From Hydrogenovibrio halophilus DSM 15072 (GTDB lineage Bacteria; Pseudomonadota; Gammaproteobacteria; Thiomicrospirales; Thiomicrospiraceae): a stretch of 64,000 nucleotides of DNA. Positions 15,921 to 57,595 of this stretch are shown piece after piece (position 1 is the stretch's first letter; each line of letters starts with the position of its first letter). Both the position numbers and the translations under genes were made by a program. Location of the stretch: contig NZ_KB913033.1 in assembly GCF_000384235.1 (NCBI RefSeq), positions 558,001 through 622,000 on the forward strand, given 5' to 3'. The notes under the pieces are model-generated. The model did no database searches. It saw only the letters and a list, made by a program, of their open reading frames with translations, and was not told the DNA's origin.

Positions 15921-15926
15921 TTATTT

Positions 15927-15987: not shown

Positions 15988-16486
15988 GCAATCGAACGGG
16001 ATTGATTTAAGAAATTCTTATTGCAGACCAACAACTTAGCGCTGACAGCAAACCGGACGGGATTCGGAAAAAAGAAAAAATAACATCTGTTTATTCATAC
16101 GGTTACACACATAACCAAACAATGCATTTGAACTGAAAAAAATAAGCAATTGAAAGAATGGAAAGTTTACAGAATCAAACGCAGAGTTAAAAAACCACAA
16201 CATCTAGCGGTTAGTAGAAAATTAATCGCTATATATTGAAAATCAGAAGACAAGTCCATCGAGATAAAGAATTCACCAGGCCTGGTGAAAAGAGCAGGAG
16301 AACCTAACCCGAATATTTCACAAATTTGCACCGATCTCGCTTGCCCCTTGATTCCACAAGCAATATTTTCTCAGTCGATCGTAATCAGGTAGATACGACG
16401 CTTCTTCGAAAATTTCCTTGTGAAAACAAGTTCCTGCGCGACCTCAGCACAAATTCATGAAACATTCGGGCTAAAAGAAAAAGGGC
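15988..16486. other. AT-rich gene-free stretch between mraZ and rnpB
   Basis: About 500 bp clearly richer in A and T than the rest of the window, with several A tracts and no convincing gene. It contains one palindrome copy (16272-16289). On the minus strand about 41 codons ending at 16318 lack a start and read like a protein fragment (EEASYLPDYDRLRKY), so a gene relic is possible but not shown. Confidence 0.6.
16272..16289. repeat. ACCAGGCCTGGT palindrome (exact), intergenic, 18 bp
   Basis: Core at 16275-16286, extended by TTC/GAA to an 18-bp perfect palindrome, in the AT-rich gap upstream of the mraZ promoter. Confidence 0.95.
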
Positions 16487-16856
16487 AAGAAGGTCTGTAA
16501 GCCGGGTTCTGTCCTGTTGCCAGGTAGCAACCATTCATCTGGGCGTGCCATCACTGACAGCCTCAAGCGACCTACCCGAAAACCCGGTGCGAGCCACACC
16601 GTGCCCGTGCGAAACGGACCCGTTTTCCTATTTGGTCTTGCACTGAATGGGGTTTGCCCTGCCGCAGACGGTTACCCGCTGCGCGGTGCGCTCTTACCGC
16701 ACCTTTTCACCCTTACCGGTTGCCCGGCGGTTCGTTTTCTGTGGCACTTTCCGTCGGCTCACGCCGCCCAGCCGTTAGCTGGCATTCTGCTCTGCAGTGC
16801 CCGGACTTTCCTCGAACTCGATTTGACTCAAGCCCGCGATTGCCCGACCTTCTTGC
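16487..16856 (-). ncRNA. rnpB: RNase P RNA (type A)
   Basis: Catalytic RNA of RNase P, which matures tRNA 5' ends. On the minus strand the conserved GAGGAAAGTCCGGGC segment follows the 5' region, and the RNA ends near GGCTTACAGACC. The two ends pair in a perfect 9-bp P1 helix, AAGAAGGTC at the 5' end with GACCTTCTT at the 3' end (16846-16854 with 16487-16495). The size of about 370 nt is normal for bacterial type A. A promoter lies directly upstream. It is divergent from the DUF2062 gene. Confidence 0.95.
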
Positions 16857-16863
16857 GAAGGCT

Positions 16864-16892
16864 ACTCTACCCGAAAGCCGCGATCATGTCCA
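16864..16892 (-). promoter_or_regulatory. Promoter of rnpB
   Basis: Minus-strand TGGACA (16892-16887), a 17-bp spacer and TAGAGT (16869-16864) predict a start near 16857, right at the first base of the P1 helix. Agreement between the predicted start and the RNA end supports both calls. Confidence 0.7.
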
Positions 16893-16933
16893 TTTTGTTA
16901 CAAACACGTGCGCCCGGTTGGTACAATGACTTA

Positions 16934-17461
16934 ATGGTTCGTTATCTCAAATTGCAAATGCACCGAATCGGCCGCAAAGTCCGGCAATCGGCCCTACTCA
17001 ACCGCTATTTCCCGCGCTTCAAGGACCGGGTGTACTGGGCGGGCAACCGCATGTCTTTTGCACGGGCGGGGTTCATCGGTGCCTTCTGCATGATGCTGCC
17101 CATTCCGTTTCAGATGTTGCTGGGCTCGATTCTGGCCTATTATGGCCGGGCCAATATCCCGCTGGCCACAGCACTGGCCTGGATCACCAACCCTCTGACC
17201 ATGGGCCCCATCTGGTATGGCGGCTATCAATTCGGCACCTGGTTTCTGAACGTCCCCGACGTGCATCCGAGCATGCAAAACCTGGCCATTGGCTCACCCA
17301 TCTGGTTTGAACAGGTTTTCCCATTGATCTGGCAGCCGTTTTTTCTGGGCAATCTGATGCTGGGCGTGATTTTTGGCAGCCTGCTGTTTGCGCTGATTGC
17401 TTACCTGCATCCGGTGCGTTTCCTGTTTAATGCCCTGTCACGACGCCGGAGTCAGCGCTGA
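16934..17461 (+). CDS. DUF2062 membrane protein
   Basis: A 175-residue inner-membrane protein of the DUF2062 family (function unknown). The frame is open far upstream but that part overlaps rnpB. The start at 16934 (MVRYLKLQ) lies after rnpB; an ATG at 16886 (MSILLQ) is possible but would fall in the rnpB promoter. A basic N terminus is followed by the family segment (RMSFARAGFIGAFCMMLP, then IPFQM) and ITNPLTMGPIWYGGYQFG, with about three hydrophobic helices. The stop TGA shares one base with the ATG of the GGDEF gene, so the two are coupled. Confidence 0.85.
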   Translation: MVRYLKLQMHRIGRKVRQSALLNRYFPRFKDRVYWAGNRMSFARAGFIGAFCMMLPIPFQMLLGSILAYYGRANIPLATALAWITNPLTMGPIWYGGYQFGTWFLNVPDVHPSMQNLAIGSPIWFEQVFPLIWQPFFLGNLMLGVIFGSLLFALIAYLHPVRFLFNALSRRRSQR

Positions 17462-19359
17462 TGTATCTGCAGTTTTATCAACAACGCATCCTCCTGACCT
17501 CGATTCTGATCATGCTGTTCACCGCCATCGTGGTCGGGTTGAGCGTGGCCCTGCCCCTGTTTCAGTCGGCACAACAGGGCATCGACAAAGCCACCCGCAT
17601 CAGCGTCCAGGCCCACACCAACTCACTGGATCATCTGCTGCAGGGCTACCACAACATCGCCGAACAGTTCACCAGCCGGACCGAAATCCGCAAGCGGCTG
17701 GTCGCCTACAGTCAGGGAGACCTGTCACTGCAGGCCGCGGTTGACTTTTCACAGCCTCGACTCGCCGATGCCGCCCGCAAAATTCCAAGTCTGGCCGCCT
17801 TCTACCGCCTGGGGCCCGAGGGCGAAATCATCACCCGCAGCCATGAGGGCGAACTGGGGTTTGATTCGGTCAGCGAACTGTTCCCTGATATCGAAGGCGC
17901 GTCGCTGTCTTTTCGGCAAAACCCCAATCTGCACAAGCAACTGGCGCCCATCGGTTTTTACTTTACCGACACCTCTCTGCTGATTGTGGCCACCGCGCCC
18001 ATTCGCGATCCGCAAAAACAGGTGGTCGGGATGGACGTGCTGATCTTTGCGCCGGATCAGTGGCTGGATCGATTGCAATCGCCCGAACACCTTCATCCCA
18101 GCACTCGTCTCTATCTTTACAACCCGCAAAATCACCAGGCCTGGTCGATTCGCAACCATCAGGCCCAGCCGCTTGAAAGCGGGGATTCGCTGCTGACCAC
18201 CTTGAAGCAGCACCCCAATCAGTCCTACCTGATGCCAATGGACCAGCAGGAGCACACCCTGTTTCAAAGCCCGCTGGAACAGGCTCCCTGGGACCTGATA
18301 GTGGCATTGCCGCAGTCCACGCTCTACCACGAAGCCTATGACGATCTGCTCTGGGCACTGGTGTCGATTGCGCTGATGATGCTGATCGGCGGGATTCTGA
18401 CCCATCAGGCCATTCAGCCACTGATCAAACGCCTCAGTCGTCAGGCCGAAGAGATTCAGGCCTCGGAAAAAGCGCTGAGACAGGCCGCCAGTGTGTTCGA
18501 CAACACCAAAGAGGCGATTGCCATCACCGACGCCGATTTTCGCCTCAGCAAAGTCAACCATGCCTTTGAACAGTTGCTGGCCAGTTCCGATGAGCTGGCC
18601 CGCTACCGCTCCCTGACCCGGTTGATGACCACCGAATCGGCCGACCCGGATCACCTGCGCAGCATTCTGGAGCAAGTGGAAGCGCGCGATCACTGGCAGG
18701 GCGAAATCTGGTACCAGACGCCTTCAGGGGAAAAACTGCCCGCCTTGCAGACCATCAGCGCGGTTCGGGACAAACAGACCGAACAGATTGAGCAGCTGAT
18801 TCACATTTTCAATGACATCAGTCAGCACAAAGCCAAAGAAAACCACATGAAGCATCTGGCGCACTTCGACAGCCTGACCCAGCTGCCCAACCGCGCCTCG
18901 ACCATGCAGGAACTGGAGCGCCGACTGGACTCGCTGAAAAAAGGAGAAAGTCTGGCGGTGCTGTTTCTGGATCTGGACCGATTCAAGCCCATCAACGACA
19001 CCTATGGCCACGAATGCGGCGATGAAATCCTCAGAGACGTAGCCAAACGTTTGAACAACCATGTGCGGCCCGAAGACTGGGTCGGGCGTCTGGGCGGTGA
19101 CGAGTTTCTGATTCTGCTGACCGGCACCGACATGGCCCGCCATGCCCGGACCATTGCCCTCAAACTGGTCGAAATCCTGGAAGTGCCGTTTTCAACCAAA
19201 GAACACCAACTAAGCCTGAGTGGATCCATCGGCATCGCACTGGCCCCGCAGAACGGGAATCAAGTACGGGCACTGCTCAAACTGGCCGATCAGGCCATGT
19301 ACCAGACCAAATCCAACCAGAATTCCCCGGTGGGACTGGCCGACGATCTGCAAAACTAG
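17461..19359 (+). CDS. Membrane PAS-GGDEF diguanylate cyclase
   Basis: A 632-residue sensor that should make cyclic di-GMP. TM1 at about 10-33 and TM2 at about 295-317 enclose a periplasmic region of about 260 residues that resembles a double-Cache-type sensor. A short linker coiled-coil leads to a PAS domain about 340-455 and a GGDEF domain about 465-620. The active-site motif GGDEF is intact at about 544-548 (RLGGDEFLIL) and the DLDRFKPINDTYGHECGD segment is present. No EAL domain follows. Start and stop overlap with the DUF2062 gene (TGATG). A palindrome copy encodes NHQAWSIR in the periplasmic part. Confidence 0.93.
   Translation: MYLQFYQQRILLTSILIMLFTAIVVGLSVALPLFQSAQQGIDKATRISVQAHTNSLDHLLQGYHNIAEQFTSRTEIRKRLVAYSQGDLSLQAAVDFSQPRLADAARKIPSLAAFYRLGPEGEIITRSHEGELGFDSVSELFPDIEGASLSFRQNPNLHKQLAPIGFYFTDTSLLIVATAPIRDPQKQVVGMDVLIFAPDQWLDRLQSPEHLHPSTRLYLYNPQNHQAWSIRNHQAQPLESGDSLLTTLKQHPNQSYLMPMDQQEHTLFQSPLEQAPWDLIVALPQSTLYHEAYDDLLWALVSIALMMLIGGILTHQAIQPLIKRLSRQAEEIQASEKALRQAASVFDNTKEAIAITDADFRLSKVNHAFEQLLASSDELARYRSLTRLMTTESADPDHLRSILEQVEARDHWQGEIWYQTPSGEKLPALQTISAVRDKQTEQIEQLIHIFNDISQHKAKENHMKHLAHFDSLTQLPNRASTMQELERRLDSLKKGESLAVLFLDLDRFKPINDTYGHECGDEILRDVAKRLNNHVRPEDWVGRLGGDEFLILLTGTDMARHARTIALKLVEILEVPFSTKEHQLSLSGSIGIALAPQNGNQVRALLKLADQAMYQTKSNQNSPVGLADDLQN
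18134..18145. repeat. ACCAGGCCTGGT palindrome (exact), inside the GGDEF gene
   Basis: Exact 12-mer read as His-Gln-Ala-Trp-Ser in the periplasmic sensor part. Confidence 0.95.
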
Positions 19360-19360
19360 A

Positions 19361-21898
19361 CTAACGTTTGATCGAACGGCCCGGCAGCGCCTGCATCGGA
19401 TCTTCCGGCCAGCGATGCTTGGGATAACGTCCCCGCATCTCTTTGGCCACCTCGTGATAAGAGCTCTGCCAGAAGCCTGCCAGATCCGAAGTCACCTGAA
19501 TCGGCCGACGCGCCGGTGACAGCAGTTCAAAACGCAAAGCCACCTGCCCTCCTGCCAGACGCGGGGCCTCGCGCATCCCGAACAATGCCTGCAAAGGCAC
19601 CGAGACCGTCGGTGGCGACTGGGCACTGGGGTCGTAGCCAATCGGTACCGCACGCCCGGCAGGCGGTTCAAACACAGGCGGAGCCAATGCGGCCAATTGC
19701 CGGCTGGCGTCATAGCCCAGTTGCGTCTGCCAGATCGATACCCAGTCCAGCCGTGCCAAGTTTTTCAAATCCTTTGTGTCCCCCAGAAACGGGGCCAGCC
19801 ACTGGTCCAGCGTCTGCATCAGGGGCTCAGCTTCAAACCCGGCAAAGCCGTCACGGTAATGACTGAGCCAGCGCACCCGATCCAACCAGGCCTGCGCCTT
19901 GTCGGGCCAACGCAATAATTCGGGCTGTTTTTGCAGGGCCTGCAGCAAGCAGGCCTGGCACTTTTCAACCGACCAGTGCGCTTGCGCCAAAGGCTGCTGA
20001 CGCAAAACAATCGCCCCCAGCCGCTCCTCTTCATACGCCCGGACCCGCTCCGCCCCGGCATCAAACCGATAAACCGTCCGGGTGCGAAAGGCCTCGTCCA
20101 GAACCGCTCTCAACGCCGACTCGGTCACCGACACAGCCAGACGCATGCGCCCGGATTCGCCCGCGATTTCCGCAGCGACCAGCCATTCGGCATTGCGCAG
20201 TGGCGCATTTTCCGGCAGGCTTGCCCGTCCCCCTTGCGCCAATTGATAGCCGGTCCCATCGGGCGTCATCCGCCGGGCCACACGTTCGGGATAGGCCAGA
20301 GCCAGCAAAGCCGACAGCGCTTCGCGGTCGCCGGGGTCATCCGATGACGCCTGACGGGATAAACCCAGCGCCGAACGCAACGCCATTGTCGTTTTTTGCC
20401 AACGCCTGTGGGCCGGATGCCCTGCCACCTCACTCTGATGCCAGCCGGTCCAGTGGGTCAGAAAATCCACATCGCCACGTTTCGCACTTTGCGCGGCCAG
20501 ACCTTCGGTCAAAAACGCCGCCAGTGACGCCGCCAGCGCCTGTTGCGATGCCGGTGCCCGCAACAGCATCGCTGCCAGCCTGGGAGACACGGGCAGCTTG
20601 AGCGCTTTTTGTCCCCACTCAGTCATGGCCCCTTTCGTATCCAACAAGTCCCAATCCTGCAAATGACGTTGTGCGGCCGCAAAATGCCCGGCCGGTGGTG
20701 GGGTCAGCCAGTGCAATTCGGCTGGATCCACCACGCCCCATTGCGCCAGTTCCAGACACAGGCGCGACAAATCCACCCGCTGAATTTCCGGCGCATCCGA
20801 AGCAGAAAGACGCGCCTGATCGGCTTCTCGCCAGAGGCGGTAGCAATGACCGGCTTGCAGGCGTCCAGCACGGCCGCGGCGCTGCTCCGCCGAGGCTTGA
20901 GAAAGGCATTGGGTCTGCAGGTGATCGAGGCCGGTATTGGGATCGTACAGCATCTGTTTTTGCCAGCCACTGTCGACCACGGCGGTAATGCCTTCAATGG
21001 TCAGACTGGTTTCGGCAATATTGGTTGCGAGCACCACTTTGCGCTCCCCGGCCGGACAGGGCGCAATCGCCGCCGACTGTTCCGCCGGAGGCAAACGCCC
21101 ATACAGCGCGCGAATCCGGATGTGCGGTTCGTGCGCAAGCATCTCGTTCAGCCGCCCTGTCAGACGGTGAATCGCGCCTTCTCCCGGCAAAAACACCAGC
21201 ACATCCCCATCGGAGTCCGTGAGTGCCCGTCGGATCAGTGCCGGCACCTGTGGCAACCAATCCGAATGCGGGGAATGGGACGAAGACAGGTAATGCGTGG
21301 CCACCGGAAACTGGCGACCACTGGCCTGACTGATGGAGACGGGTTGCTGGTAAGCGCCCAGCCATTGGGCCATGGATTCCGCCGCCAGCGTCGCCGACAT
21401 CACCAGAATCCGCAGGTCCGGGCGCAAAGCGCTCTGCACCTCCAACAACAGTGTCAGCGCCAGATCCGCATGCAAAGAGCGCTCATGAAACTCGTCAAAA
21501 ATCACCAGACCGATCCCGGCCAGTTCCGGGTCGGACTGTAACCGCCGGGTCAGAATACCCTCGGTCAGGATTTCCAGGCGCGTGGCCTGACTGATCCGGC
21601 GTTCGTGACGCACTTGATAACCGATGCTCTGCCCCACTGGCTGCTGATGGCAGCGGGCCAGATAAGTCGCCAGGGATTTGACCGCCAGCCGACGCGGTTC
21701 CAGCATCAGGATTTTCTGGCCGGCCAGCCAGTCTCTCGACAGGAGATAACTCGGTACCGCAGTGGATTTACCGGCACCCGGATCGGCCTGCAGCACCACA
21801 TTGTCGCCCCGGGTCAGGGCGGCATCGATCTCCGGCAACTGCGCCGCAATCGGCAGCGACGCATCCCATGTCGTGTCACAAGACGTGCGCTCAATCAT
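19361..21898 (-). CDS. hrpB: ATP-dependent helicase HrpB
   Basis: DEAH-box RNA helicase family protein, 845 residues from the ATG at 21898 (MIERTSCDTTW), close to the 824 of E. coli HrpB. The frame is open further up but that extension would run through tRNA-Arg. Walker A is DPGAGKSTAVP, the DEAH position reads DEFH (FDEFHERSLHADLAL) as usual in HrpB, SAT is present (VMSATL), and motif VI is QRRGRAGRLQ. A long HrpB-specific C-terminal region follows. The stop is one base from the stop of the convergent GGDEF gene. The cellular role of HrpB is poorly known. Confidence 0.95.
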   Translation of the reverse strand: MIERTSCDTTWDASLPIAAQLPEIDAALTRGDNVVLQADPGAGKSTAVPSYLLSRDWLAGQKILMLEPRRLAVKSLATYLARCHQQPVGQSIGYQVRHERRISQATRLEILTEGILTRRLQSDPELAGIGLVIFDEFHERSLHADLALTLLLEVQSALRPDLRILVMSATLAAESMAQWLGAYQQPVSISQASGRQFPVATHYLSSSHSPHSDWLPQVPALIRRALTDSDGDVLVFLPGEGAIHRLTGRLNEMLAHEPHIRIRALYGRLPPAEQSAAIAPCPAGERKVVLATNIAETSLTIEGITAVVDSGWQKQMLYDPNTGLDHLQTQCLSQASAEQRRGRAGRLQAGHCYRLWREADQARLSASDAPEIQRVDLSRLCLELAQWGVVDPAELHWLTPPPAGHFAAAQRHLQDWDLLDTKGAMTEWGQKALKLPVSPRLAAMLLRAPASQQALAASLAAFLTEGLAAQSAKRGDVDFLTHWTGWHQSEVAGHPAHRRWQKTTMALRSALGLSRQASSDDPGDREALSALLALAYPERVARRMTPDGTGYQLAQGGRASLPENAPLRNAEWLVAAEIAGESGRMRLAVSVTESALRAVLDEAFRTRTVYRFDAGAERVRAYEEERLGAIVLRQQPLAQAHWSVEKCQACLLQALQKQPELLRWPDKAQAWLDRVRWLSHYRDGFAGFEAEPLMQTLDQWLAPFLGDTKDLKNLARLDWVSIWQTQLGYDASRQLAALAPPVFEPPAGRAVPIGYDPSAQSPPTVSVPLQALFGMREAPRLAGGQVALRFELLSPARRPIQVTSDLAGFWQSSYHEVAKEMRGRYPKHRWPEDPMQALPGRSIKR
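19885..19896. repeat. Degenerate palindrome copy (10 of 12) in hrpB
   Basis: ACCAGGCCTGCG, two mismatches in one arm. Read as Ala-Gln-Ala-Trp in HrpB (minus strand), the same frame as most genic exact copies. Confidence 0.6.
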
Positions 21899-21939
21899 GG
21901 CGTCGCACTCCGTGTGTACGCCGACACAGGCCATGGAAA

Positions 21940-21955
21940 CCACCAGGCCTGGTGG
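21940..21955. repeat. ACCAGGCCTGGT palindrome (exact), upstream of tRNA-Arg, 16 bp
   Basis: Core at 21942-21953, extended to 16 bp by CC/GG. It lies between hrpB and the tRNA, about where the -35 region of the tRNA promoter would be if CATAAT at 21975-21980 is the -10. Confidence 0.95.
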
Positions 21956-22008
21956 ATTTTGGGGTAGAAATTTGCATAATAGCAAGTGTAGTGCATTCGC
22001 AAGCGTTG

Positions 22009-22084
22009 GTGCCATTCGATTAACAGGATAAATCCCGGGCCTCCTAAGCCCGAGCTGCTGGTTCGAGTCCAGCATGGCACACCA
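22009..22084 (+). tRNA. tRNA-Arg (anticodon CCT)
   Basis: A 76-nt cloverleaf with CCA encoded. The acceptor stem GTGCCAT pairs with ATGGCAC, followed by A and CCA. The D arm has GATT/AATC, the anticodon stem CGGGC/GCCCG encloses loop CTCCTAA with anticodon CCT, and the T arm is GCTGG-TTCGAGT-CCAGC. It reads AGG codons. A CATAAT box at 21975-21980 is a possible -10. The next gene starts 29 bp downstream without an obvious terminator. Confidence 0.95.
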
Positions 22085-22113
22085 TTCTCTCCTTCTTTGC
22101 AAAGGCGCGCGTC

Positions 22114-22899: not shown

Positions 22900-22930
22900 T
22901 GTAAACCAGAGAAAACCGGTCCTGACCCGC

Positions 22931-23440: not shown

Positions 23441-23462
23441 CGCAACGTCCTTTAGTGAATCC

Positions 23463-24851: not shown

Positions 24852-24863
24852 AGTCTGGCCTCT

Positions 24864-25373: not shown

Positions 25374-25498
25374 GACAACCCTCCCGAGAAGCATTCGCTG
25401 TTAACATGGGCATTTTTTCATAAATGGACAAAAATAACTATGGATAAATCTTGCAACCCCCTTTTGTGAGGCCTTTGCGAACAAAAACACGCAGACAC

Positions 25499-25523
25499 AA
25501 AAAAAGCGCAGACACTGCGCTTT
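25499..25523 (-). terminator. Rho-independent terminator of the ectoine operon
   Basis: In the minus-strand transcript AAAGCGCAG and CTGCGCTTT form a perfect 9-bp stem with a 3-nt loop (25523-25503), directly followed by further Ts. It lies about 30 bp after the stop of the TPR gene and closes the ectABC-ask-TPR unit. Confidence 0.88.
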
Positions 25524-25551
25524 CAATGACGTCGGGACGTTCACAGCACGG

Positions 25552-27976: not shown

Positions 27977-27983
27977 ACTTACG

Positions 27984-28433: not shown

Positions 28434-28445
28434 ACCAGGCCTGGT
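28434..28445. repeat. ACCAGGCCTGGT palindrome (exact), ectB-ectC gap
   Basis: Exact 12-mer, intergenic within the ectoine operon, 52 bp upstream of the ectC start. Confidence 0.95.
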
Positions 28446-30632: not shown

Positions 30633-30644
30633 ACCAGGCCTGGT
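30633..30644. repeat. ACCAGGCCTGGT palindrome (exact), upstream of the ect promoter
   Basis: Exact 12-mer between the ectoine promoter and the stop of the 93-residue gene. Confidence 0.95.
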
Positions 30645-30661: not shown

Positions 30662-30943
30662 TCAGAATCGGTCTGCGCCGAACTGCCGCATTTTGTAATA
30701 ATACTTCACTTTGTAGGGGTCTGGCCCCTCTTTGGCCAACATGCGCTCCATGTCTTCAAACAGCCCCGGAAACAACAGCTCGTAAACCTGTTGCAGGGTT
30801 TCCAGATCGTCGTCGGCCACCGGCACCTCAATGATGCGCAGCTTGGGACAGGAAAACGCGGTGATGTCCATGGATTCCAGATTCATACGATCCACTTCAA
30901 AATCGTAATCGTCCTCGTACATGTCTTTGATGATCCAGCCCAT
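30662..30943 (-). CDS. Small acidic protein of unknown function (93 aa)
   Basis: A 93-residue cytoplasmic-looking protein with no signal or membrane segment. The first half is acidic (DMYEDDYDFEVDRMNLES), then a beta-like stretch (PKLRIIEVPVADDD) and helical segments rich in Leu and Glu, ending with Tyr/Lys-rich YKVKYYYKMRQF. No family was recognised. Its ATG overlaps the stop of the upstream lipoprotein gene (TAATG), which argues for a real, coupled gene. It ends 18 bp from a palindrome copy. Confidence 0.75.
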   Translation of the reverse strand: MGWIIKDMYEDDYDFEVDRMNLESMDITAFSCPKLRIIEVPVADDDLETLQQVYELLFPGLFEDMERMLAKEGPDPYKVKYYYKMRQFGADRF

Positions 30944-32624: not shown

Positions 32625-35144
32625 TCAATCCTTGACCGTGATCGGCGTCAGATGCCAGATGTCTTCGTTGTATTGCTGCATGGTGCGGTCGGTCGAGAAG
32701 ATGCCACTGCGCGCGCTGTTGATGATGCTCATGGTGTTCCAGCGCTCATGATCCTGATAGGCTTCGGCCACATTGGCCTGGGCATCGACATACTCACGGA
32801 AATCGGCCAAGGTCATCCAGGGATCGTGCGGGCTTTTCAGATTCTGCAGAATCTGGTCGAATAGCCCCGGTTCAAACTGACTGAAATGCCCGGACTCCAG
32901 CAGTCCGAACACGGCCTGCAGATCGTGATCACGATCAATGCAGCCTTGCGGGTCATAGTGGTGACGCAACTCACTGACCTCTTCGGTGCGCAGCCCGAAC
33001 AGGAAGAAATTCTCCGGTCCGACCGCATCGTGTATTTCCACATTGGCCCCGTCATAGGTGCCGATGGTCACCGCGCCGTTCATCATGAACTTCATATTGC
33101 CGGTGCCGGAGGCTTCCTTGCCGGCGGTCGAAATCTGCTCGGACAGATCGGTGCCGGGCGCGATGATTTCCATGGCCGACACATTGTAATCGGGGATAAA
33201 CACCAGCTTGAGCTTGTCGCCCACATCCGGATCGTCGTTGACCACACTGGCCACATTATTGATCAGTTTGATGATGTTTTTGGCCACCGCATAGCCAGGG
33301 GCCGCCTTGCCGCCGATGATCACCGCCCGGTTGGTCCAGTTATCGGTGTCGCCGCGTTTGATCCGTGAATACAGATGGATCACGTGCAACACGTTCAACA
33401 GCTGACGCTTGTATTCGTGTACCCGTTTGACCTGCACATCGAACAGACTGGTCACGTCCAGGGTCACGCCGGTTTTGCGCTGGATCATGTCCGCCAGGCG
33501 CTGTTTGTTTTCGCGCTTGACCGCCATCCAGTTCTGACGAAACGCCTTGTCTTTCACCAGCGGTTCGATCTGCGCCAACTGGCTCAGGTCGGTGATCCAG
33601 TCTTCGCCGATCTGTTCTTTCAATAACCGACGCAAACCGGGATTGGCACTGGCCATCCAGCGACGCTGGGTGACGCCGTTGGTTTTGTTATTGAACTTGT
33701 GCGGCCAGAGCTGGTAAAAATCGTGAAACAGGCCTTCTTTCAACAGACGCGAATGCAGTGCCGCCACACCATTGACGGAAAAACTGCCGACAATGGCCAG
33801 ATACGCCATGCTCACCTGATCGTCGCCGTCAATGATCGACATCCGCTGCTGGCGAGCGGTGTCGCCCGGCCATTTCATCGCCACCTGGCGCAGGAAGCGG
33901 GCATTGATTTCGTAAATGATCTCCAGCAGACGCGGCAGCAATTTTTCAAACAGCGCCACCGGCCATTTTTCCAGGGCTTCCGGCAGGAGCGTGTGATTGG
34001 TATAGGCCATGCAACGGCTCACAATTGACCAGGCCTGGTCCCAATCCAACCGATGTTCGTCAACCAGCAAACGCATCAGCTCCGCCACCGCCAGGCTGGG
34101 GTGGGTGTCGTTCAACTGGAACACATTCTGTTCATGGAATCGGTCGAATTCACGCCCATTACGCTCCACCCACTGGGCGACCACATCCTGCAACGAGGCC
34201 GAGACCAGAAAATACTGCTGGCGCAAACGCAGTTCCTTGCCGTTTTCGCTGGCGTCATTGGGGTAAAGCACCATGGTGATGTTTTCGGCTTCGCTTTTTT
34301 TGGCCACCGCTTCAAAATAAGAGCCCTGATTGAATTCGGCCAGATCGAATTCTTCGGGCGAAGAGGCCGACCACAAACGCAGGGTGTTGACGGTGTTGTT
34401 CTTGAAACCAGGAATCGGGACGTCAAACGGCACCGCCAGCACTTCTTCTGCGTCTTCCCAGTGCACAATGAACTCCCCGGTTTCCGGGTCTTTGTAAGGG
34501 CGGGTGTAGCCGCCGAAACGCACCATCCTCGTGTATTCGGCACGCTGGATTTCCCAGGGATAGGAGCCATAGGCCAACCAGTGATCCGGCTCTTCGATCT
34601 GAAAACCGTTTTGAATCAGCTGCTTGAACATGCCGTATTCGTAACGCAGACCGTAGCCCAGCACCGGCAATTTCAGCGTGGCGCAGGAATCCATAAAGCA
34701 GGCCGCCAATCGGCCCAGCCCGCCGTTGCCCAGCCCGGCATCCCGTTCGGCCTGCTCGATTTCCTCGATCGACAGTCCCAGGTTGTAAAGTGCCTGATCG
34801 GTCTTGTTTTCAATGCCGAGATTGAGCATGTTGTTGGAGAGGGAGCGTCCGATCAGAAACTCCATCGACAGGTAATAGGCTTTTTTGGTATTGCAGCTCT
34901 GGTAAGCCTGCCAGGTCTGCTTCCAGTGAGTCATGATCCGATCGCGCACCGTGAAAGACAGCGCATTGAATTGATACCAGGCATCGGAACGCATACTGCG
35001 GCCAAAGGTGTTGTAGAGGTAATTGATAAAATCCTCTTCAATGTCTTCGACCTCCAGCCCGGTCTGCTTGAGCAGTTCGGCAATGCGCTGTTCCTGTTCC
35101 GGGGTCAGATTGGGACGAGCTTGCTCTGTGTGTCGTGCGGTCAT
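32625..35144 (-). CDS. glgP: Glycogen phosphorylase
   Basis: GlgP releases glucose-1-phosphate from glycogen ends. I choose the ATG at 35144 (MTARHTEQ) because GGAG lies nine bases upstream; an ATG at 35159 is possible. This gives 839 residues, the family size. The PLP lysine lies in EASGTGNMKFMMNGA, and other landmarks are GNGGLGRLAACFMDS, YEYGMFKQ, LNDTHPSLAVAELMR and RVHEYKRQLLN. It is the last gene of the glycogen series, 162 bp after glgA. A palindrome copy at 34028-34039 encodes DQAWSIV. Confidence 0.97.
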   Translation of the reverse strand: MTARHTEQARPNLTPEQEQRIAELLKQTGLEVEDIEEDFINYLYNTFGRSMRSDAWYQFNALSFTVRDRIMTHWKQTWQAYQSCNTKKAYYLSMEFLIGRSLSNNMLNLGIENKTDQALYNLGLSIEEIEQAERDAGLGNGGLGRLAACFMDSCATLKLPVLGYGLRYEYGMFKQLIQNGFQIEEPDHWLAYGSYPWEIQRAEYTRMVRFGGYTRPYKDPETGEFIVHWEDAEEVLAVPFDVPIPGFKNNTVNTLRLWSASSPEEFDLAEFNQGSYFEAVAKKSEAENITMVLYPNDASENGKELRLRQQYFLVSASLQDVVAQWVERNGREFDRFHEQNVFQLNDTHPSLAVAELMRLLVDEHRLDWDQAWSIVSRCMAYTNHTLLPEALEKWPVALFEKLLPRLLEIIYEINARFLRQVAMKWPGDTARQQRMSIIDGDDQVSMAYLAIVGSFSVNGVAALHSRLLKEGLFHDFYQLWPHKFNNKTNGVTQRRWMASANPGLRRLLKEQIGEDWITDLSQLAQIEPLVKDKAFRQNWMAVKRENKQRLADMIQRKTGVTLDVTSLFDVQVKRVHEYKRQLLNVLHVIHLYSRIKRGDTDNWTNRAVIIGGKAAPGYAVAKNIIKLINNVASVVNDDPDVGDKLKLVFIPDYNVSAMEIIAPGTDLSEQISTAGKEASGTGNMKFMMNGAVTIGTYDGANVEIHDAVGPENFFLFGLRTEEVSELRHHYDPQGCIDRDHDLQAVFGLLESGHFSQFEPGLFDQILQNLKSPHDPWMTLADFREYVDAQANVAEAYQDHERWNTMSIINSARSGIFSTDRTMQQYNEDIWHLTPITVKD
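34028..34039. repeat. ACCAGGCCTGGT palindrome (exact), inside glgP
   Basis: Exact 12-mer, 14 bp with G/C. Read as Asp-Gln-Ala-Trp-Ser in GlgP. Confidence 0.95.
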
Positions 35145-35294
35145 GTTCCGATTCTCCATTAGAATGTGATGATCGTCGTTTGGGGTTTTGCCACAAGATT
35201 CATTAAAACCTTTATTGCAACGCAAAACGCCTGAATTGTGGGTGACAGCTGGATGACATTCGACCCGGTTTCAAGATCAGAAAACCCGTTTTTT

Positions 35295-35306
35295 ACCAGG
35301 CCTGCT
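35295..35306. repeat. Near-copy of the palindrome (11 of 12), glgA-glgP gap
   Basis: ACCAGGCCTGCT preceded by a T tract, directly after the glgA stop. The same T-tract flank occurs at 40456 and 57584. Confidence 0.7.
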
Positions 35307-36782: not shown

Positions 36783-36783
36783 G

Positions 36784-39027: not shown

Positions 39028-39037
39028 AGTCATCCTT

Positions 39038-40441: not shown

Positions 40442-40455
40442 AAAACTCCTTTTTT

Positions 40456-40467
40456 ACCAGGCCTGGT
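40456..40467. repeat. ACCAGGCCTGGT palindrome (exact), GH57-malQ gap
   Basis: Exact 12-mer with a run of Ts on one side, just upstream of the malQ ribosome site. Confidence 0.95.
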
Positions 40468-40485
40468 TAATAATTGCACAGGTCT

Positions 40486-46695: not shown

Positions 46696-47352
46696 ATGCC
46701 CTTTGTGCCACGTTCCATCTCCCAACCCTTGACCGGGTGCCTGATCGCTCTCACATTGGCGTTGCCTGCTCAGGCTGCAGACGCCAACCGTGCCCTCCTG
46801 TCCACCGCGATTGTCGGCACCCTGGCCTCGCTTGGTCTGGCCTGTTATCAGCAGAAAACACCCTGTTCTCTGTCGCAGGAACTGGCCAGTGACCGCCGCA
46901 CCCTTTCCATTGACATCGGTCGTGACGACACACTGCAAAACCGCGCCTTGTGGCTGGGCATGGACTGGCAGGGACCGATTTACGAATCCAGCCGTTTTCG
47001 GGTCAACGGTCGCTGGGACCTCAACCTGCAATACTGGTACAGCAACGAATCGGACGTGCGCAATGACAGCGGTTACATTCTGGGACTGACCCCGGTGTTT
47101 CGTTATTACTACAAGACCGGCGGCGTTCTGCCTTACCTTGAAACCGGCATTGGCCCGCAACTTCTCAGCGACGTGTGGCTGGAAAACGACAACAAATCCA
47201 CCCAGTTTCAGTTTGGCAGCATTCTGGGCATCGGACTGACGCACGACCAATACGAAATCGGTTACCGCTACCAGCACATTTCCAACAACGACATTCAAAC
47301 CCCCAACCCCGACACGGATTTTCACAATCTGCACTTCGGATGGCGGTTTTAA
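46696..47352 (+). CDS. pagL: PagL-like lipid A 3-O-deacylase
   Basis: An outer-membrane beta-barrel enzyme that removes the 3-position acyl chain of lipid A. The 218-residue precursor has a signal peptide ending near AQAA (residues 26-28) and alternating beta strands up to a terminal Phe (FGWRF). The active-site motif is YQHISNND, with the catalytic His and Ser. In Pseudomonas PagL the third residue, a Glu, stands 14 positions after the His; here an Asp occupies that spacing. It lies with LPS genes hldE, kdsD and waaA. The family call is good; activity is less sure. Confidence 0.83.
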   Translation: MPFVPRSISQPLTGCLIALTLALPAQAADANRALLSTAIVGTLASLGLACYQQKTPCSLSQELASDRRTLSIDIGRDDTLQNRALWLGMDWQGPIYESSRFRVNGRWDLNLQYWYSNESDVRNDSGYILGLTPVFRYYYKTGGVLPYLETGIGPQLLSDVWLENDNKSTQFQFGSILGIGLTHDQYEIGYRYQHISNNDIQTPNPDTDFHNLHFGWRF

Positions 47353-47363
47353 CCAGGCCTGGT
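47352..47363. repeat. ACCAGGCCTGGT palindrome (exact), pagL-kdsD gap
   Basis: Exact 12-mer that starts at the last base of the pagL stop and ends 5 bp before the kdsD ATG, filling the place where a ribosome site would be. Confidence 0.95.
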
Positions 47364-47368
47364 CAAAT

Positions 47369-48325: not shown

Positions 48326-48346
48326 TCGGCGCGGCGGAGGTCGAAC

Positions 48347-49690
48347 ATGACTCTGCGCACCTATCGCTGGTTATTGCGCCTGCTGTGGCCCCTGATCGTC
48401 TGGTCCGGTTACCGGCGCTGTCGCAAGGCCGCTCGCCGGGCGGCTGACTCACAGGACGAGCGACCAATCGAACATTGTCTGGCCGCCCGTTTCGGCCGCC
48501 ATCCCGGCCCTTTCAAACAGGGTGGCATCTGGGTGCATGCGGTGTCGGTGGGCGAGACCCGTTCTGTGTTCCCTCTCCTCAACGCCTTGCACCAGCGCGC
48601 GCCCGACTGCCCGTTAACCCTGACCAGCGGCTCTACCCAGGGCGCACAGCAGGCGCTGCGTTTTGCGCCCGTGCCAATCCAACATCAGATGATCCCCTAT
48701 GACTTGCCCGGACCGGTCAACCGCTTTTTGGATCAAGTACAGCCGCGCCTGGTATTGATGGTGGAAACCGAAATCTGGCCCAATCTTTACCAGGCCTGCT
48801 CTGAACGCGGCATTCCGCTGATGCTGATCAATGCCCGAATCAAACAACGTTCGTTTCGGGCCTATCAAAAATGGGGCGGCAAATTGGTCCGGCAGGCCTT
48901 GCGCCAGACAGAGGGGATTGCGGCGCAATTTCCGGTGGACAGGGAGCGTTTGATCGCATTGGGCGCCGACCCCGAGAAAGTGCAAACACTCGGCAATCTG
49001 AAATTCGATCTGGAAATCGACCCCAACCTGCCGCAACAGGCGCAGGATTGGCGTGAGGAAAATGGCTTGGACGGACGCTTTGTCTGGGTCGCGGCCAGCA
49101 CCCATGAAGGCGAAGAGGCGCTGATGCTGGAAGCGCATCGGCGTTTGCGGCAACAGGTGCCCGATGCGCTGCTGATTCTGGTGCCGCGCCACAATGACCG
49201 TTTTGACGAGGTCGCGGGCCTGTTGACCGACACGCCCAGTGCCATTCGCTCTCGGCAGGACCTGATAAAACCCGCCACCCAGGTATATCTGGCCGACACC
49301 ATCGGCGAACTGCTGCTATGGTATGCGGTGGCGGACACGGCCTTTGTCGGCGGCAGTCTGGTCGCGTTTGGCGGGCACAACATTCTGGAACCGGCCGCAC
49401 TGGGCAAACCGGTGCTTTCCGGGCCTGACTACAGCAATCTGCAAGCGCTGTACGACACCTTCCGGCGGGACGAGGCCATTCAGGTGGTCGAGTCACCCAC
49501 TCAGCTGGGCGACACCCTGACCGAGCTGGCTCAAACCCCGGACCAACGGCACCGACAGGGACAAAAAGCGCACCAGTGCTTTCAGAGCCAGACCGGCGCA
49601 CTGCCCAAATTACTGGCTTTGCTTGCGCCCTGGCTGTCTGACAACGGACCGACGAAACCGCCAGCCGATACCGATCAACAACACCAATAA
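48347..49690 (+). CDS. waaA: 3-deoxy-D-manno-octulosonic acid transferase
   Basis: WaaA (KdtA) attaches Kdo to lipid IVA on the cytoplasmic side of the inner membrane. The 447-residue protein has an N-terminal membrane anchor (LLRLLWPLIVWSGYRR), the GT30 segment WVHAVSVGETRSVFPLL, LVLMVETEIWPNLY and the C-terminal FVGGSLVAFGGHNILEPAALGKPV donor site. Its last 81 bp overlap the end of the convergent lnt gene. A one-mismatch palindrome copy encodes YQAC. Confidence 0.96.
   Translation: MTLRTYRWLLRLLWPLIVWSGYRRCRKAARRAADSQDERPIEHCLAARFGRHPGPFKQGGIWVHAVSVGETRSVFPLLNALHQRAPDCPLTLTSGSTQGAQQALRFAPVPIQHQMIPYDLPGPVNRFLDQVQPRLVLMVETEIWPNLYQACSERGIPLMLINARIKQRSFRAYQKWGGKLVRQALRQTEGIAAQFPVDRERLIALGADPEKVQTLGNLKFDLEIDPNLPQQAQDWREENGLDGRFVWVAASTHEGEEALMLEAHRRLRQQVPDALLILVPRHNDRFDEVAGLLTDTPSAIRSRQDLIKPATQVYLADTIGELLLWYAVADTAFVGGSLVAFGGHNILEPAALGKPVLSGPDYSNLQALYDTFRRDEAIQVVESPTQLGDTLTELAQTPDQRHRQGQKAHQCFQSQTGALPKLLALLAPWLSDNGPTKPPADTDQQHQ
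48789..48800. repeat. Near-copy of the palindrome (11 of 12), inside waaA
   Basis: ACCAGGCCTGCT, read as Tyr-Gln-Ala-Cys-Ser. Same frame as the QAW copies but with one base changed in the second arm. Confidence 0.65.
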
Positions 49691-51157
49691 CGTACCCAGC
49701 CACAAGGGCGTATGGCCCCAGCGCACAAACGGGGTTTCGCCCTGATAGGGCTGAATCTTCTCCCGCAATACCCCTGGTCCATACAGGGGCAACTGCTCCC
49801 GCACCAGCCCGTCAACGCCCACGATGGCGGTATAACCGGTATTGGTGGCGCGGGCAATTTCACGGCCCAATTCCAGCGCCCGCATCTGCGCGTCCTGCAT
49901 CTGTTGTGCCGGTTCCAGGGTGTGCGCAAACCAGGCATCGTTGCTGACCGTCACCAGAAAATCCGCGTCTCTGGCTCCGGGGGCCAACTCGGTGCCAAAC
50001 GCCATTTCGTAGCAGACCGACAAAGCCACCTTGTGCTCTCCCAGCTGCAACGGTTTCTGGCCGATGCCACCGGCGGTGAATTCCGAGAACGGAATGTCAA
50101 ACCAGCCGCTGATCACCGAAAGCAGGTCGTAAAACGGAAAAAACTCGCTGAAAGGCACCAGATGGCGCTTGTCGTAAAACTGTTCCGGATTGCCCGCGTT
50201 CACAATGGAATTGAAATAGGCGTCGTTTGCGCCGTCACGTCGGATCACGCCCATCAGAATGGTTTTTTCCAGCAGCTGGGCATCGCGGACAAACGAACGC
50301 AAGGCACCGCGTTCGACCACATCAAAATAACCGGGCACCGCCGTTTCCGGCCACACCACCAGATCCGCGCTCATGTTCTCCCGGGTCATCGACACATAGC
50401 GTTCCAGCGTCGGCCGCAACTGATCGCCCTGCCATTTCTGCTCCTGAGGCACATTGCCCTGCAACAGGGCGATGTCGACCGGCTGGCCTTTGGGCGTGAC
50501 CCAGACCACGCGGTCGAGCAAAAAGCCGCCGCCCCAGATCAGAACCAGCGCCGCACTCGCCAGCACCCAGCCCCGGGTTTTGAACAGCCACAGCAACAGC
50601 CCGGCGGTCAGCGCCACCAACCAGGACACGCCCATGGCACCGATCACCGGCACATACCCGGAAAGACTGGTGTACAAATGGCTGTTGCCGGTGACCAGAA
50701 AGGGGAAACCGCCAAACAGCGAGCCGCGGATCAACTCGGCCAGCACCCAGACCGCCGGCATCAGCCCCAGCCAATACCAGGCCTGGTCAAATTGGCCTTC
50801 GACCGGACGCCTGAGCCAGCCCACCAGGGCACCGGCCAGCATAAAATACAGACTGAGAAAACCGATAAAGATCAGCACCGCCAGCACCGCCAGCGGCAAA
50901 GGCACTTCGGCGTAAAGGTAGATACTGGAAATGAGCCAACTGACGCCAATACCGAAAAAACCGAACCCGAACCACATGCCCTGTTGCACCGCGCGGGTGA
51001 CGGTGGGCGCCTGTTGCCAGAACCAGAAAAGCCCCATCAGCGCGATCAACGCCAAAGGGGCAATGCCAATCGGCGCATGGGCAAACACCATCAGCCCGCC
51101 CAGACCGAACAGCGCCGCATCCTGTCGTTTGGGGCGGAAAAAAGCCAGAAATTTCAT
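49610..51157 (-). CDS. lnt: Apolipoprotein N-acyltransferase
   Basis: Lnt adds the third acyl chain to lipoproteins at the inner membrane. The 515-residue protein has about six N-terminal membrane segments, a periplasmic nitrilase domain and a final hydrophobic helix (WLGTLLVLLIGIGWRF). The nitrilase triad is seen as Glu in VVWPETAVPG, Lys in YDKRHLVPFSEFFP and Cys in LSVCYEMAFG. It follows corC by 14 bp in the usual ybeZYX-lnt order. A palindrome copy encodes FDQAWYW in a loop between membrane segments. Confidence 0.96.
   Translation of the reverse strand: MKFLAFFRPKRQDAALFGLGGLMVFAHAPIGIAPLALIALMGLFWFWQQAPTVTRAVQQGMWFGFGFFGIGVSWLISSIYLYAEVPLPLAVLAVLIFIGFLSLYFMLAGALVGWLRRPVEGQFDQAWYWLGLMPAVWVLAELIRGSLFGGFPFLVTGNSHLYTSLSGYVPVIGAMGVSWLVALTAGLLLWLFKTRGWVLASAALVLIWGGGFLLDRVVWVTPKGQPVDIALLQGNVPQEQKWQGDQLRPTLERYVSMTRENMSADLVVWPETAVPGYFDVVERGALRSFVRDAQLLEKTILMGVIRRDGANDAYFNSIVNAGNPEQFYDKRHLVPFSEFFPFYDLLSVISGWFDIPFSEFTAGGIGQKPLQLGEHKVALSVCYEMAFGTELAPGARDADFLVTVSNDAWFAHTLEPAQQMQDAQMRALELGREIARATNTGYTAIVGVDGLVREQLPLYGPGVLREKIQPYQGETPFVRWGHTPLWLGTLLVLLIGIGWRFRRSVVRQPGRKQSQ
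50776..50787. repeat. ACCAGGCCTGGT palindrome (exact), inside lnt
   Basis: Exact 12-mer read as Asp-Gln-Ala-Trp-Tyr in Lnt. Confidence 0.95.
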
Positions 51158-51171
51158 CAGTGGTCCGGTCC

Positions 51172-53628: not shown

Positions 53629-53718
53629 AAACCCTTCCTGTGGTAATAGAGAACATCTGTCAGTTTACACAAATCCGTTTCGCTCGTCAGCCAGGCTTTT
53701 GTGACAAGTCGAACCTGA

Positions 53719-55149: not shown

Positions 55150-55260
55150 AGAAATACTCGTGAAATCCGATTCTCGATTCAGGTTTGACAGAAAAGCCGA
55201 CCATTATAGCACAGCCATCCGAACACTTTCACAGTGGAAACAATCGATTAGATCAGGCCC

Positions 55261-55288
55261 CTTTTTGACCAGGCCTGGTCAAAAAGGC
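55261..55288. repeat. 28-bp perfect palindrome around ACCAGGCCTGGT, hemN-miaB gap
   Basis: The core is at 55269-55280, with arms CCTTTTTG and CAAAAAGG completing a 28-bp perfect palindrome between the hemN stop and the miaB start. The T tract precedes and the A tract follows the core on both strands, opposite to a rho-independent terminator, which needs Ts after the stem. Confidence 0.97.
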
Positions 55289-55302
55289 AGAAAGCACTTG
55301 GG

Positions 55303-56685
55303 TTAAATGACTTTGGAAAAACGGTTGGGCAGTTTGTCCTGCATATAGGCATCAAAGACCATGCAAATATTGCGGATCAGCAAACGCCCAGCGGCGGTCA
55401 CATAAATGTCCGAGTCCGACAGCGTGATCAGGCCGTCTTCCACCATCGGAGCCAGATTTGCCAGTTCTTTGGCGAAATACTCGGAAAACACAATGCCCCA
55501 CTGCTGACTCAAACGCTCGAAATTTAAATGGAAATGGCTCATCAAACGCGTGATCACATCCCGACGCAACTCATCGTCTTCCGACAGGGTCACGCCGCGA
55601 AACACCGCCAGCTCCCCCGAGTCGATCGCGGCGTAATAGTCATTGAGCGACTTGTGGTTCTGGGCGTAGGTGTTGTTGAGCAGTGAAATCGAGGTCGCGC
55701 CCATCCCGATCAAATCACACTCGGCATGGGTGGAATAGCCCTGAAAATTGCGATACAGGGTTTCTTCCCGTTGCGCCACCGCCAGCTCGTCATCGGGCTT
55801 GGCAAAGTGATCCATGCCAATGTAGATGTAACCGGCCTGCAGCAGACGTTCGGTGGCCGCATGCATAATCGCCAGCTTTTCGTCCGGCCCCGGCATCGCC
55901 GACTCGTCCATCTTCTTCTGGGTAGGGAACATGGCGGGCATGTGGGCGTAATTGAAAATCGAGAACCGATCCGGGTTCGACTCCAGCACCCGGTCCAGGG
56001 TTTTGAGAAAGCTCTGTTCGGTCTGATGCGGCAGGCCGTACATCAGGTCGATGTTGACCGACATGAACCCGCTTTCGTGGGCGGCTTCCAGTACCTCGAA
56101 GGTTTCGGATTCGGTCTGAATGCGATTGACCGCTTTCTGCACCCGCTCATCAAAATCCTGCACCCCCAGACTCATCCGGTTGAAGCCCAGTTCGCGCAGG
56201 CCCAGCACCGATTCGCGGCTGGCTTCCCGCGGATCGATCTCAATCGAGTACTCGCCCGAATCGTCGTCATGCAGATTGAAGTAACGACGCGTGGTTTCCA
56301 TCAACTGATGCATTTCATCCTGACTGATGAAAGTGGGCGTGCCGCCGCCCAGATGCAACTGGTCCACTTTGCGCGCCGGGTCAAACAGACGCGATTGCAG
56401 TTCGATTTCCTTGAACAGCCGCTTGAGATAAGGCGTGGTTTTTTTGCGATCACGGGTCCAGATTTTGTTGCAGGCACAAAAAAAGCAGACGGTGTCGCAA
56501 AACGGTATATGAAAATACAGCGACAACTGACGATTGGAGTCGTTGCTGCGTTCGGCAGCCGCCTTGTAATCGGCCACCTCAAACGCCTGATCGAACTCCA
56601 GTGCGGTGGGGTAAGAAGTGTAACGCGGCCCACTCTGGTTGTAGCGCTTGATCAATGCCTCATCAAATCGGATGGACTGTTCCAT
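55303..56685 (-). CDS. hemN: Oxygen-independent coproporphyrinogen III oxidase
   Basis: HemN makes protoporphyrinogen IX under low oxygen. The ATG at 56685 (MEQSIRFDEALIKRYN) fits the family and gives 460 residues; the open frame reaches 56718. The 4Fe-4S motif is CDTVCFFC with a further Cys (FCACNK), preceded by YFHIPF, and GGGTPTFIS and ISIGVQ-like LGVQDFDERVQKAVNR follow. No clear FNR box was found upstream. Confidence 0.95.
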   Translation of the reverse strand: MEQSIRFDEALIKRYNQSGPRYTSYPTALEFDQAFEVADYKAAAERSNDSNRQLSLYFHIPFCDTVCFFCACNKIWTRDRKKTTPYLKRLFKEIELQSRLFDPARKVDQLHLGGGTPTFISQDEMHQLMETTRRYFNLHDDDSGEYSIEIDPREASRESVLGLRELGFNRMSLGVQDFDERVQKAVNRIQTESETFEVLEAAHESGFMSVNIDLMYGLPHQTEQSFLKTLDRVLESNPDRFSIFNYAHMPAMFPTQKKMDESAMPGPDEKLAIMHAATERLLQAGYIYIGMDHFAKPDDELAVAQREETLYRNFQGYSTHAECDLIGMGATSISLLNNTYAQNHKSLNDYYAAIDSGELAVFRGVTLSEDDELRRDVITRLMSHFHLNFERLSQQWGIVFSEYFAKELANLAPMVEDGLITLSDSDIYVTAAGRLLIRNICMVFDAYMQDKLPNRFSKVI

Positions 56686-56809
56686 ATACCCTGTCTCTGC
56701 TGTGGTCAAAACCGCCATTCTACCAAAGCCGGGCGGTTTCGCCAGCGGGATTCCACTCTCTTTGCCTTAAGGTGCGACAAGGTTCGTCTTCAGAAGGATC
56801 GATCCAAAA

Positions 56810-57421
56810 TCAGCTCTCGGGCTGCAGCAAACGACCCAGTTGCGCGTAATCGCGACCGCCCAATCGGGCCAGCGGGTCCATGGCCAATGGATCGATTCCC
56901 TGATCGGCATCCAGAATCGCATCGTCGACGTGCATCGCCATCACTTCGCCGTAAATCACTGCCTGGGGCGCATGGCCAACTTCGTCCAGCCGGTGCAGGC
57001 GACAGGCCAGTGCCACCGGGCAGGCTTTCAGCCGAGGCAGGGCAAAACCGTCAAACGGCACGGTTTCCAGCCCCAGACGCGTCAGCTCCGATTCGCCATG
57101 CGCGAGGGTCGCGGCCGAATCCTGCACCGCATTGATCTGATCCGTGCCGGGCAGGTGAATCACAAAATCCTTTTGTTCAAGAATGTTGCGCCGCGTGTCC
57201 TTGGGCTCACCCGCTTCTTCACCGGCGGCTTTTTTGCCCGCTGAAATCAACACCAGCGGCGGATCGCTGCAGATGGCGGTAAAAAACGAATAGGGGGCCA
57301 GATTATGGCCGCCACTCGCTCCGTTGGCCGTCAGCACCCAGGCAATCGGTCGCGGAATGATCGCCTGCGCCAGACACTGGTAACGCGCCATGGGCGTTAA
57401 TTGTTCAAAATCCCACTGCAT
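56810..57421 (-). CDS. Flavin reductase-like FMN-binding protein
   Basis: A 203-residue protein of the flavin reductase-like (DIM6/NTAB, COG1853) family. The ATG at 57421 (MQWDFEQLTPMARYQ) is chosen because the longer frame lacks family similarity. Typical parts are IIPRPIAWVLTANGASGGHNLAPYSFFTAICSDPPLV and the FVIHLP strand. The substrate is unknown; such proteins bind FMN. A TATACT box (57463-57458) suits a -10 for this gene. It is divergent from the Amt-GGDEF gene. Confidence 0.87.
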   Translation of the reverse strand: MQWDFEQLTPMARYQCLAQAIIPRPIAWVLTANGASGGHNLAPYSFFTAICSDPPLVLISAGKKAAGEEAGEPKDTRRNILEQKDFVIHLPGTDQINAVQDSAATLAHGESELTRLGLETVPFDGFALPRLKACPVALACRLHRLDEVGHAPQAVIYGEVMAMHVDDAILDADQGIDPLAMDPLARLGGRDYAQLGRLLQPES

Positions 57422-57583
57422 GGTTTGGTCCCTTTTTCTTCTCGATGTGAAAGCGCAAGTATAACCAACCCATGGCGGGCAACAAACACCCTTTTTGCAC
57501 CATATTCGTTCAATAACATCAAAGCACATCGACCGACGGTAGCTCACAAAACCATTACTCACTCATATAAAGGCGCTTTTTTT

Positions 57584-57595
57584 ACCAGGCCTGTT
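57584..57595. repeat. Near-copy of the palindrome (11 of 12), upstream of Amt-GGDEF
   Basis: ACCAGGCCTGTT after a T tract, in the 221-bp divergent gap between the flavin reductase-like and Amt-GGDEF genes. Confidence 0.7.

Follow-up and report, generated by a model that had tools for sequence, protein, structure and literature searches.

A highly iterated, mostly palindromic motif of Hydrogenovibrio halophilus and its relatives as a candidate uptake sequence with local dialects

The 12-bp palindrome ACCAGGCCTGGT recurs throughout the genome of Hydrogenovibrio halophilus DSM 15072, an organism related to sulfur-oxidising bacteria, and was studied here in a stretch of 64,000 nucleotides (contig NZ_KB913033.1, positions 558,001 to 622,000; hereafter the window, to which coordinates refer unless another source is named) and in related genomes. 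We consider it probable, at about 70%, that ACCAGGCCTGGT represents, as a local dialect, a mostly palindromic family of uptake sequences, i.e. words of the DNA uptake sequence (DUS) or uptake signal sequence (USS) kind, found outside the Neisseriaceae and Pasteurellaceae; the part played by uptake is what we infer from the genomic distribution of the motif. In its behaviour the motif looks like a 'self' tag for the uptake of own-kind DNA.

A total of 515 exact copies were found in the 2.36-Mb genome of H. halophilus (i.e. G000 in our set, 100% complete; other genomes are denoted G001, G004 and so on), corresponding to about one copy per 4.6 kb or ~220 12-mers per Mb, whereas a control with the letters of ACCAGGCCTGGT reversed gave no match. 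The window contains 14 exact copies, as stated in a preliminary description of this DNA, and no other 12-bp palindrome there exceeds two copies. One of the positions given in that description, 55269, is the start of a 10-mer, the 12-mer itself beginning at 55268. Two further positions that had been listed as copies are not exact 12-mers; these partial copies (35295..35304 and 57584..57593) have the core CAGGCCTG at 35297 and 57586, respectively. Copies were examined in a sample of 464 kb consisting of the window and twenty 20-kb stretches of the same genome, with 399 genes and 86.9% coding sequence as called by a home-made, two-model gene caller for which gene starts are approximate. One-base variants of ACCAGGCCTGGT numbered 42 in this sample as compared to 105 exact copies. 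An order-level genome search returned 62 genomes, every one from the same family as H. halophilus, which is the family including Thiomicrorhabdus cannonii. Counts of ACCAGGCCTGGT among 55 genomes searched were 0-400 in other members of the genus, 0-660 in the rest of the family and at most one in outsiders, and 365 genomes of the class from outside the family (of 369 searched) had five or fewer 12-mers each. The core CAGGCCTG was present in 409-1133 copies in 30 of 58 family genomes and in no more than 74 copies in the remaining 28.

Copies are strongly enriched between genes. In the 464-kb sample, 45 of 105 copies were fully intergenic as compared to 13.8 expected (p = 6e-14), with 54 fully coding and six straddling a gene boundary. 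A similar analysis of 400 kb of contig 3 of genome G005 gave 42 intergenic copies out of 73 (11.4 expected); intergenic shares for G005 and for the genomes with an asymmetric dialect (see below) are rougher because a single-model caller was used (84% and 74% coding, respectively). The enrichment previously proposed for the window is therefore borne out, the intergenic share lying well above the non-coding fraction. Amongst the 42 intergenic H. halophilus copies with called genes on both sides, 26 were within 60 bp of a stop codon (8.7 expected, p = 9e-9) and ten within 60 bp of a start (11.0 expected). The same limit applied to G005 placed 30 of 42 copies near stops (7.9 expected) and 11 near starts (9.9 expected). 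By gene orientation, the 42 flanked copies were divided into 17 in convergent, 19 in tandem and six in divergent gaps, equivalent to 1.63, 0.65 and 0.33 per kb. The intergenic excess concerns gene ends and not gene starts, contrary to the initial impression that copies often lie near starts. A role at starts or promoters had also been proposed and is disfavoured by the excess at the 3' sides of genes, by the peak in density between convergent genes and by the genic location of roughly half of all copies. A function in gene regulation close to starts and promoters would fit the single copies near tRNA-Arg, malQ and a kdsD-like gene, and also the asymmetric dialect, for which five of 22 copies were within 60 bp of a start as compared to 2.3 expected; with no excess near starts in H. 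halophilus or G005 and the lowest density in divergent gaps, we find this explanation barely credible.

The core is embedded in a conserved context. Positions 2-5 outside the core were mostly A/T (69-94%) in intergenic and coding copies alike (H. halophilus, using an earlier gene set), and A/T flanks were observed on both sides of the core, also in several relatives. Because coding copies share these flanks, they appear to be part of the motif and not a mere reflection of intergenic composition. A preceding T tract had been thought to mark a subfamily (35295, 40456 and 57584); this tract belongs to the general A/T flank and on its own is no evidence of a subfamily. Coding copies occurred in two main frames (32 and 20 of 54) and were mostly read as xQAWx or xPGLV. 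Terminators of transcription, or hairpins at mRNA 3' ends, built on a stereotyped stem would likewise account for the surplus of copies in convergent gaps and at distances of up to 60 bp from stops, and long perfect arms are commoner at gene ends, as at least five further paired bases beyond the core were present in seven of 31 gene-end views (i.e. 27 copies, four of which were viewed from two genes) as compared to two of 54 copies in genes. However, 54 of the 105 copies are genic, and on average T precedes and A follows the core. As a T-rich tail (at least five T in the eight bases behind the core) was found in two of the 31 gene-end views of these 27 copies, a classic terminator is unlikely as the main function; we regard this explanation as improbable overall, with termination being at most a secondary use. 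Read on the gene strand, many 3'-end copies (e.g. at 55268 in the window and at 11466 in stretch L023) have a core preceded by a run of T and followed by a run of A, which is opposite to the order in an intrinsic terminator. For one 3'-end copy in the 464-kb sample, perfect palindromic symmetry extends over 36 bp or more.

Relatives carry variant words, or dialects, in place of or beside the standard form. G021 and G025 have AACAGGCCTGTT-like words, G031 has ACCGGCCGGT, G029 has CAGGCCGGGT and G022 has AGCAGGCCTGCT alongside the standard form. An asymmetric dialect, AAAATCTRCCAGGYTGGG, was found in G001, G004 and G010, the form in G001 and G004 being written AAAATCTGCCAGGYTGGG. Its 16-bp part AATCTGCCAGGYTGGG (up to two mismatches, both strands) matched 381 times in G004, 381 times in G010 and 416 times in G001, as compared to nine or fewer times in each of the other 55 genomes; the reversed word gave 0-2 matches in the three genomes. 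Placement of the asymmetric form was examined in 240 kb from G001, G004 and G010, where 24 of 33 matches were intergenic (8.6 expected, with 74% coding by the single-model caller). Of 22 between two called genes, 14 were near stops as compared to 2.2 expected, in addition to the five near starts described above. Two inverted pairs of this form, ~33 bp apart, were detected, both in one G004 stretch. A tree of DprA from 30 genomes united G001, G004 and G010 as one clade with support of 100/100; the other dialects were not resolved in this one-gene tree, in which G021 and G025, sharing a dialect, did not group together, and several dialect labels derive from counts and not from logos. The stretches sampled from the genomes ranged in G+C from 39% (G033) to 55% (H. 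halophilus). No such motif was seen in the 40-44 kb sampled from each of G012, G016 and G018, and the samples from G007 and G024 comprised 20 kb each. The G010 stretches L037-L040 also contain 9- to 12-mers found ~18-35 times within 80 kb, which points to a gene with internal repeats.

Conservation of sites was assessed in an alignment of H. halophilus and G005 covering ~115 kb at 77% mean identity. Fourteen of 26 H. halophilus sites were identical over all 12 bases in G005 as compared to 9.9% of background 12-mers, and 14 of 21 sites were identical when viewed from the G005 side. Several sites keep the 12-mer within diverged flanks. One coding site was compared widely, in the glycogen phosphorylase gene, and none of 79 homologues was gapped there, indicating that this copy arose within existing sequence. 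An origin by substitution and not by insertion is observed at this one coding site, while at the gapped intergenic sites either origin may apply.

Spacing between copies was more even than random in two of the three genomes tested (G000 and G005), and in the third (G008) at short range only. The first 100 H. halophilus copies had a coefficient of variation (CV) of 0.73 as compared to a random mean of 0.99 (P = 0.001), with five gaps below 1 kb (17.3 expected). For the 400 kb of G005 the CV was 0.63, none of 5000 simulations being as low, with four such gaps (12.0 expected). Among the first 68 cores of G008 there was no gap below 1 kb (10.9 expected), and the longest gap spans tRNA genes and rpoB. 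The longest gap free of the 12-mer among the first 100 H. halophilus copies, at 401.8-426.3 kb, has a lower G+C beside tRNA-Asn and retains three 8-bp cores. It holds an island-like region next to this tRNA gene, at positions 4826-18200 of the stretch G000:C1:400001-420000 (L270), with an insertion sequence (IS)-type integrase, PhoX, a P450 and two-partner secretion proteins, including an exoprotein of 1794 aa. The main rival to uptake is a binding site for a dimeric chromosome-organising or nucleoid-associated protein, with dialects arising through co-evolution. A palindromic core with symmetric A/T flanks, even spacing and conservation of sites at orthologous places all accord with such a protein; the asymmetric form of one clade, the two inverted pairs of this form and the 12 of 26 sites that are not identical in G005 do not, and on balance we judge this alternative unlikely but deserving of serious attention.

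Three competence genes are widespread. ComEC was found in 32 of 34 family genomes (49 of 55 when outsiders were included), DprA in all 58 family genomes and a ComEA-type HHH domain over the cut-off in 51 of 58, including all 30 CAGGCCTG-rich genomes (Fisher p = 0.004, the genomes not being independent). H. halophilus itself carries ComEC, DprA and the ComEA-type domain. Loci of comEC contained 42 copies of the motif as compared to 21.9 expected (16 loci), a difference due in part to copies inherited between species and measured with a yardstick that is ~10% low, as random stretches held 380 copies with 345.2 expected. DUS are biased to genome-maintenance genes.

Methylases were considered in view of a further explanation, in which DNA methylation together with mismatch repair generates and maintains a palindrome of the highly iterated palindrome (HIP) type. 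The GC-rich, highly iterated nature of the motif and the replacement of one palindrome by another across related genomes are both features of such a system. On the other hand, the complete H. halophilus genome has no match to PF00145 or PF01555 (other methylase families were not searched), leaving the methylation model without an evident enzyme from these two families there. Among the 30 CAGGCCTG-rich genomes, 21 lack a PF00145 match and 13 lack both families, and the dialect of G001, G004 and G010 is not a palindrome. A HIP-type origin is accordingly considered very improbable.

If the motif is an uptake sequence, a receptor at the cell surface, belonging to the natural-transformation machinery, would bind the 8-12-bp core, with the A/T tracts, roughly a helical turn away from the centre, aiding binding. 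Because DNA bearing the motif would be favoured by the receptor, and so be taken up and recombined more often, the motif could build up where it is least harmful, i.e. in gaps behind stops and at permissive codons, and near-misses would stay rare. We infer all three of the elements of this scheme: the motif is bound by an uptake receptor, this receptor acts as a dimer or recognises either half of the motif, and accumulation is driven by uptake. It also seems reasonably likely that environmental relatives of Thiomicrorhabdus have independently evolved a third family of uptake sequences for self-recognition. Its common form would be the palindrome, recognised by a symmetric (dimeric) receptor; as one clade uses a one-sided dialect, the change of receptor specificity could be traced.

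Several observations weigh against uptake. G012 and G018 have ComEC, ComEA and DprA yet no motif in the 40 kb sampled from each. Loci of dprA were not enriched (20 copies as compared to 22.9 expected, 18 loci), making the result for competence genes mixed. The first 68 cores of G008 had a CV of 0.99 (P = 0.56), which is random-like overall. Genes of atypical composition, in which acquired DNA might be sought, were not depleted, with five copies in 41 kb (0.121 as compared to 0.135 per kb). The 12 sites that differ in G005 comprise one with one changed base, three with two, one with five and seven that are gapped. Finally, the USS described in the excerpt of PMC12616744 are not palindromic.

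By gene call, seven of the 14 window copies are fully intergenic (10908, 16275, 21942, 28434, 30633, 40456 and 55268), one overlaps a stop codon (47352) and six are genic; with a non-coding share of 7.6%, about one of 14 would be expected to be intergenic. Seven intergenic copies had been claimed before, and six of these are confirmed as fully intergenic, while 47352 overlaps a stop by one base and 10908 was missing from the list. The copy at 10908..10919 lies in the gap between an ftsI-like gene (penicillin-binding protein, PBP, domains) and a Mur ligase gene and is gapped, i.e. not conserved, in G005. Two copies lie between divergent genes, namely 16275..16286, between mraZ (15462-15869, minus strand) and a gene at 16934-17461 (plus strand), and 21942..21953, between the start of hrpB and tRNA-Arg (22009-22084), which is identical in G005. 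The latter had been assigned to a presumed -35 region of tRNA-Arg, but a simple consensus scan scored no sigma-70-like promoter in 21880-22100. Four copies lie 17-23 bp behind a stop codon. These are 28434..28445, between a class-III aminotransferase gene (stop at 28469, 23 bp away) and ectoine synthase, gapped and not conserved in G005; 30633..30644, 17 bp behind the stop of a gene at 30662-30943 (minus strand), with two mismatches in G005; 40456..40467, in the 44-bp gap between a GH57 gene (stop at 40486, 18 bp away) and malQ (start at 40441), identical in G005; and 55268..55279, within the longer palindrome TTTTTGACCAGGCCTGGTCAAAAA and 23 bp behind the stop of a HemN-like gene (55303-56685, minus strand), also identical in G005. 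The copy at 47352..47363 touches a stop codon, overlapping the last stop-codon base of a PagL-like gene, and ends 5 bp before the ATG (47369) of an SIS-CBS (kdsD-like) gene; it is identical in G005.

The genic copies at 2844..2855 (in a short-chain dehydrogenase gene identified by gene call and Pfam, 2299-3096, minus strand), 6013..6024 (in a called gene at 5411-6760, minus strand) and 18134..18145 (in a gene at 17461-19359, plus strand) are identical in G005. The copy at 10700..10711 forms part of a longer perfect palindrome in the Mur ligase gene (9309-10838, minus strand; Pfam), which is probably murE as judged from its place, and the 12-mer is kept in G005 despite diverged flanks. The glycogen phosphorylase copy (34028..34039) codes for part of WDQAWS and has two mismatches in G005, and the copy at 50776..50787, in a gene at 49610-51157 (minus strand), has one. 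A glycogen-type cluster occupies 32625-42213 (minus strand) of the window and comprises phosphorylase, branching enzyme, malQ-like 4-alpha-glucanotransferase and GH57 protein genes. A 605-aa protein encoded at 57643-59460 (plus strand) combines an ammonium transporter and a GGDEF diguanylate cyclase domain in a single chain.

In the literature outside most subscription journals and preprints, the matches listed contained no report of such a motif in this family. Amongst the matches listed for the letters of ACCAGGCCTGGT, none concerned a bacterial repeat by its title, and queries for an uptake sequence with Thiomicrospira, or for competence and transformation with Hydrogenovibrio, produced no match. 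The excerpt of PMC3630211 describes uptake sequences for the Neisseriaceae and Pasteurellaceae only. If the uptake interpretation is correct, the present case would add a further family with several dialects, a symmetric core and a wide G+C span, and would provide an independent test of how uptake sequences originate, of their upkeep by selection versus molecular drive and of receptor-motif co-evolution; it would also suggest that these environmental bacteria exchange DNA by selective transformation.

Comparisons with known systems draw on excerpts of the papers cited. For cyanobacterial HIP1, a methylation-driven model has been proposed and alternative HIPs replace HIP1 in some relatives (PMC4390886); the present motif is likewise a highly iterated palindrome swapped for others in some relatives, but differs from HIP1 in having no match to the two methylase families searched in H. 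halophilus, a strong intergenic bias and one asymmetric dialect. With Pasteurellaceae USS it shares a core with flanking A/T tracts (PMC7811141) and, at the coding site compared widely, an origin by substitution and not insertion (PMC1626085). USS fall into two types that follow subclades (PMC7811141, PMC1626085, PMC12616744), to which the asymmetric dialect of a single clade would be comparable. Whereas USS are asymmetric with a GCGG core, the core here is CAGGCCTG with A/T tracts on both sides. Neisseriaceae DUS occur mostly in intergenic or permissive places and are stringently conserved, with perfect copies ~2.4-fold more numerous than near-misses in aligned regions (PMC2397512), and they too exist as dialects (PMC3630211). 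DUS and the motif described here have in common a copy number in the hundreds to thousands, the existence of dialects, strict conservation, permissive or intergenic placement and inverted pairs (PMC3630211, PMC2397512). The differences from DUS are the bacterial family, the lower density (~220 12-mers per Mb) and the prevalence of a palindrome, the asymmetric form being restricted to three genomes. A precedent for the symmetric form is provided by Simonsiella muelleri, in which 1294 simDUS/kingDUS copies occur as dyad-symmetric overlapping pairs; this arrangement was interpreted there as possibly pointing to recognition by a dimer (PMC3630211).

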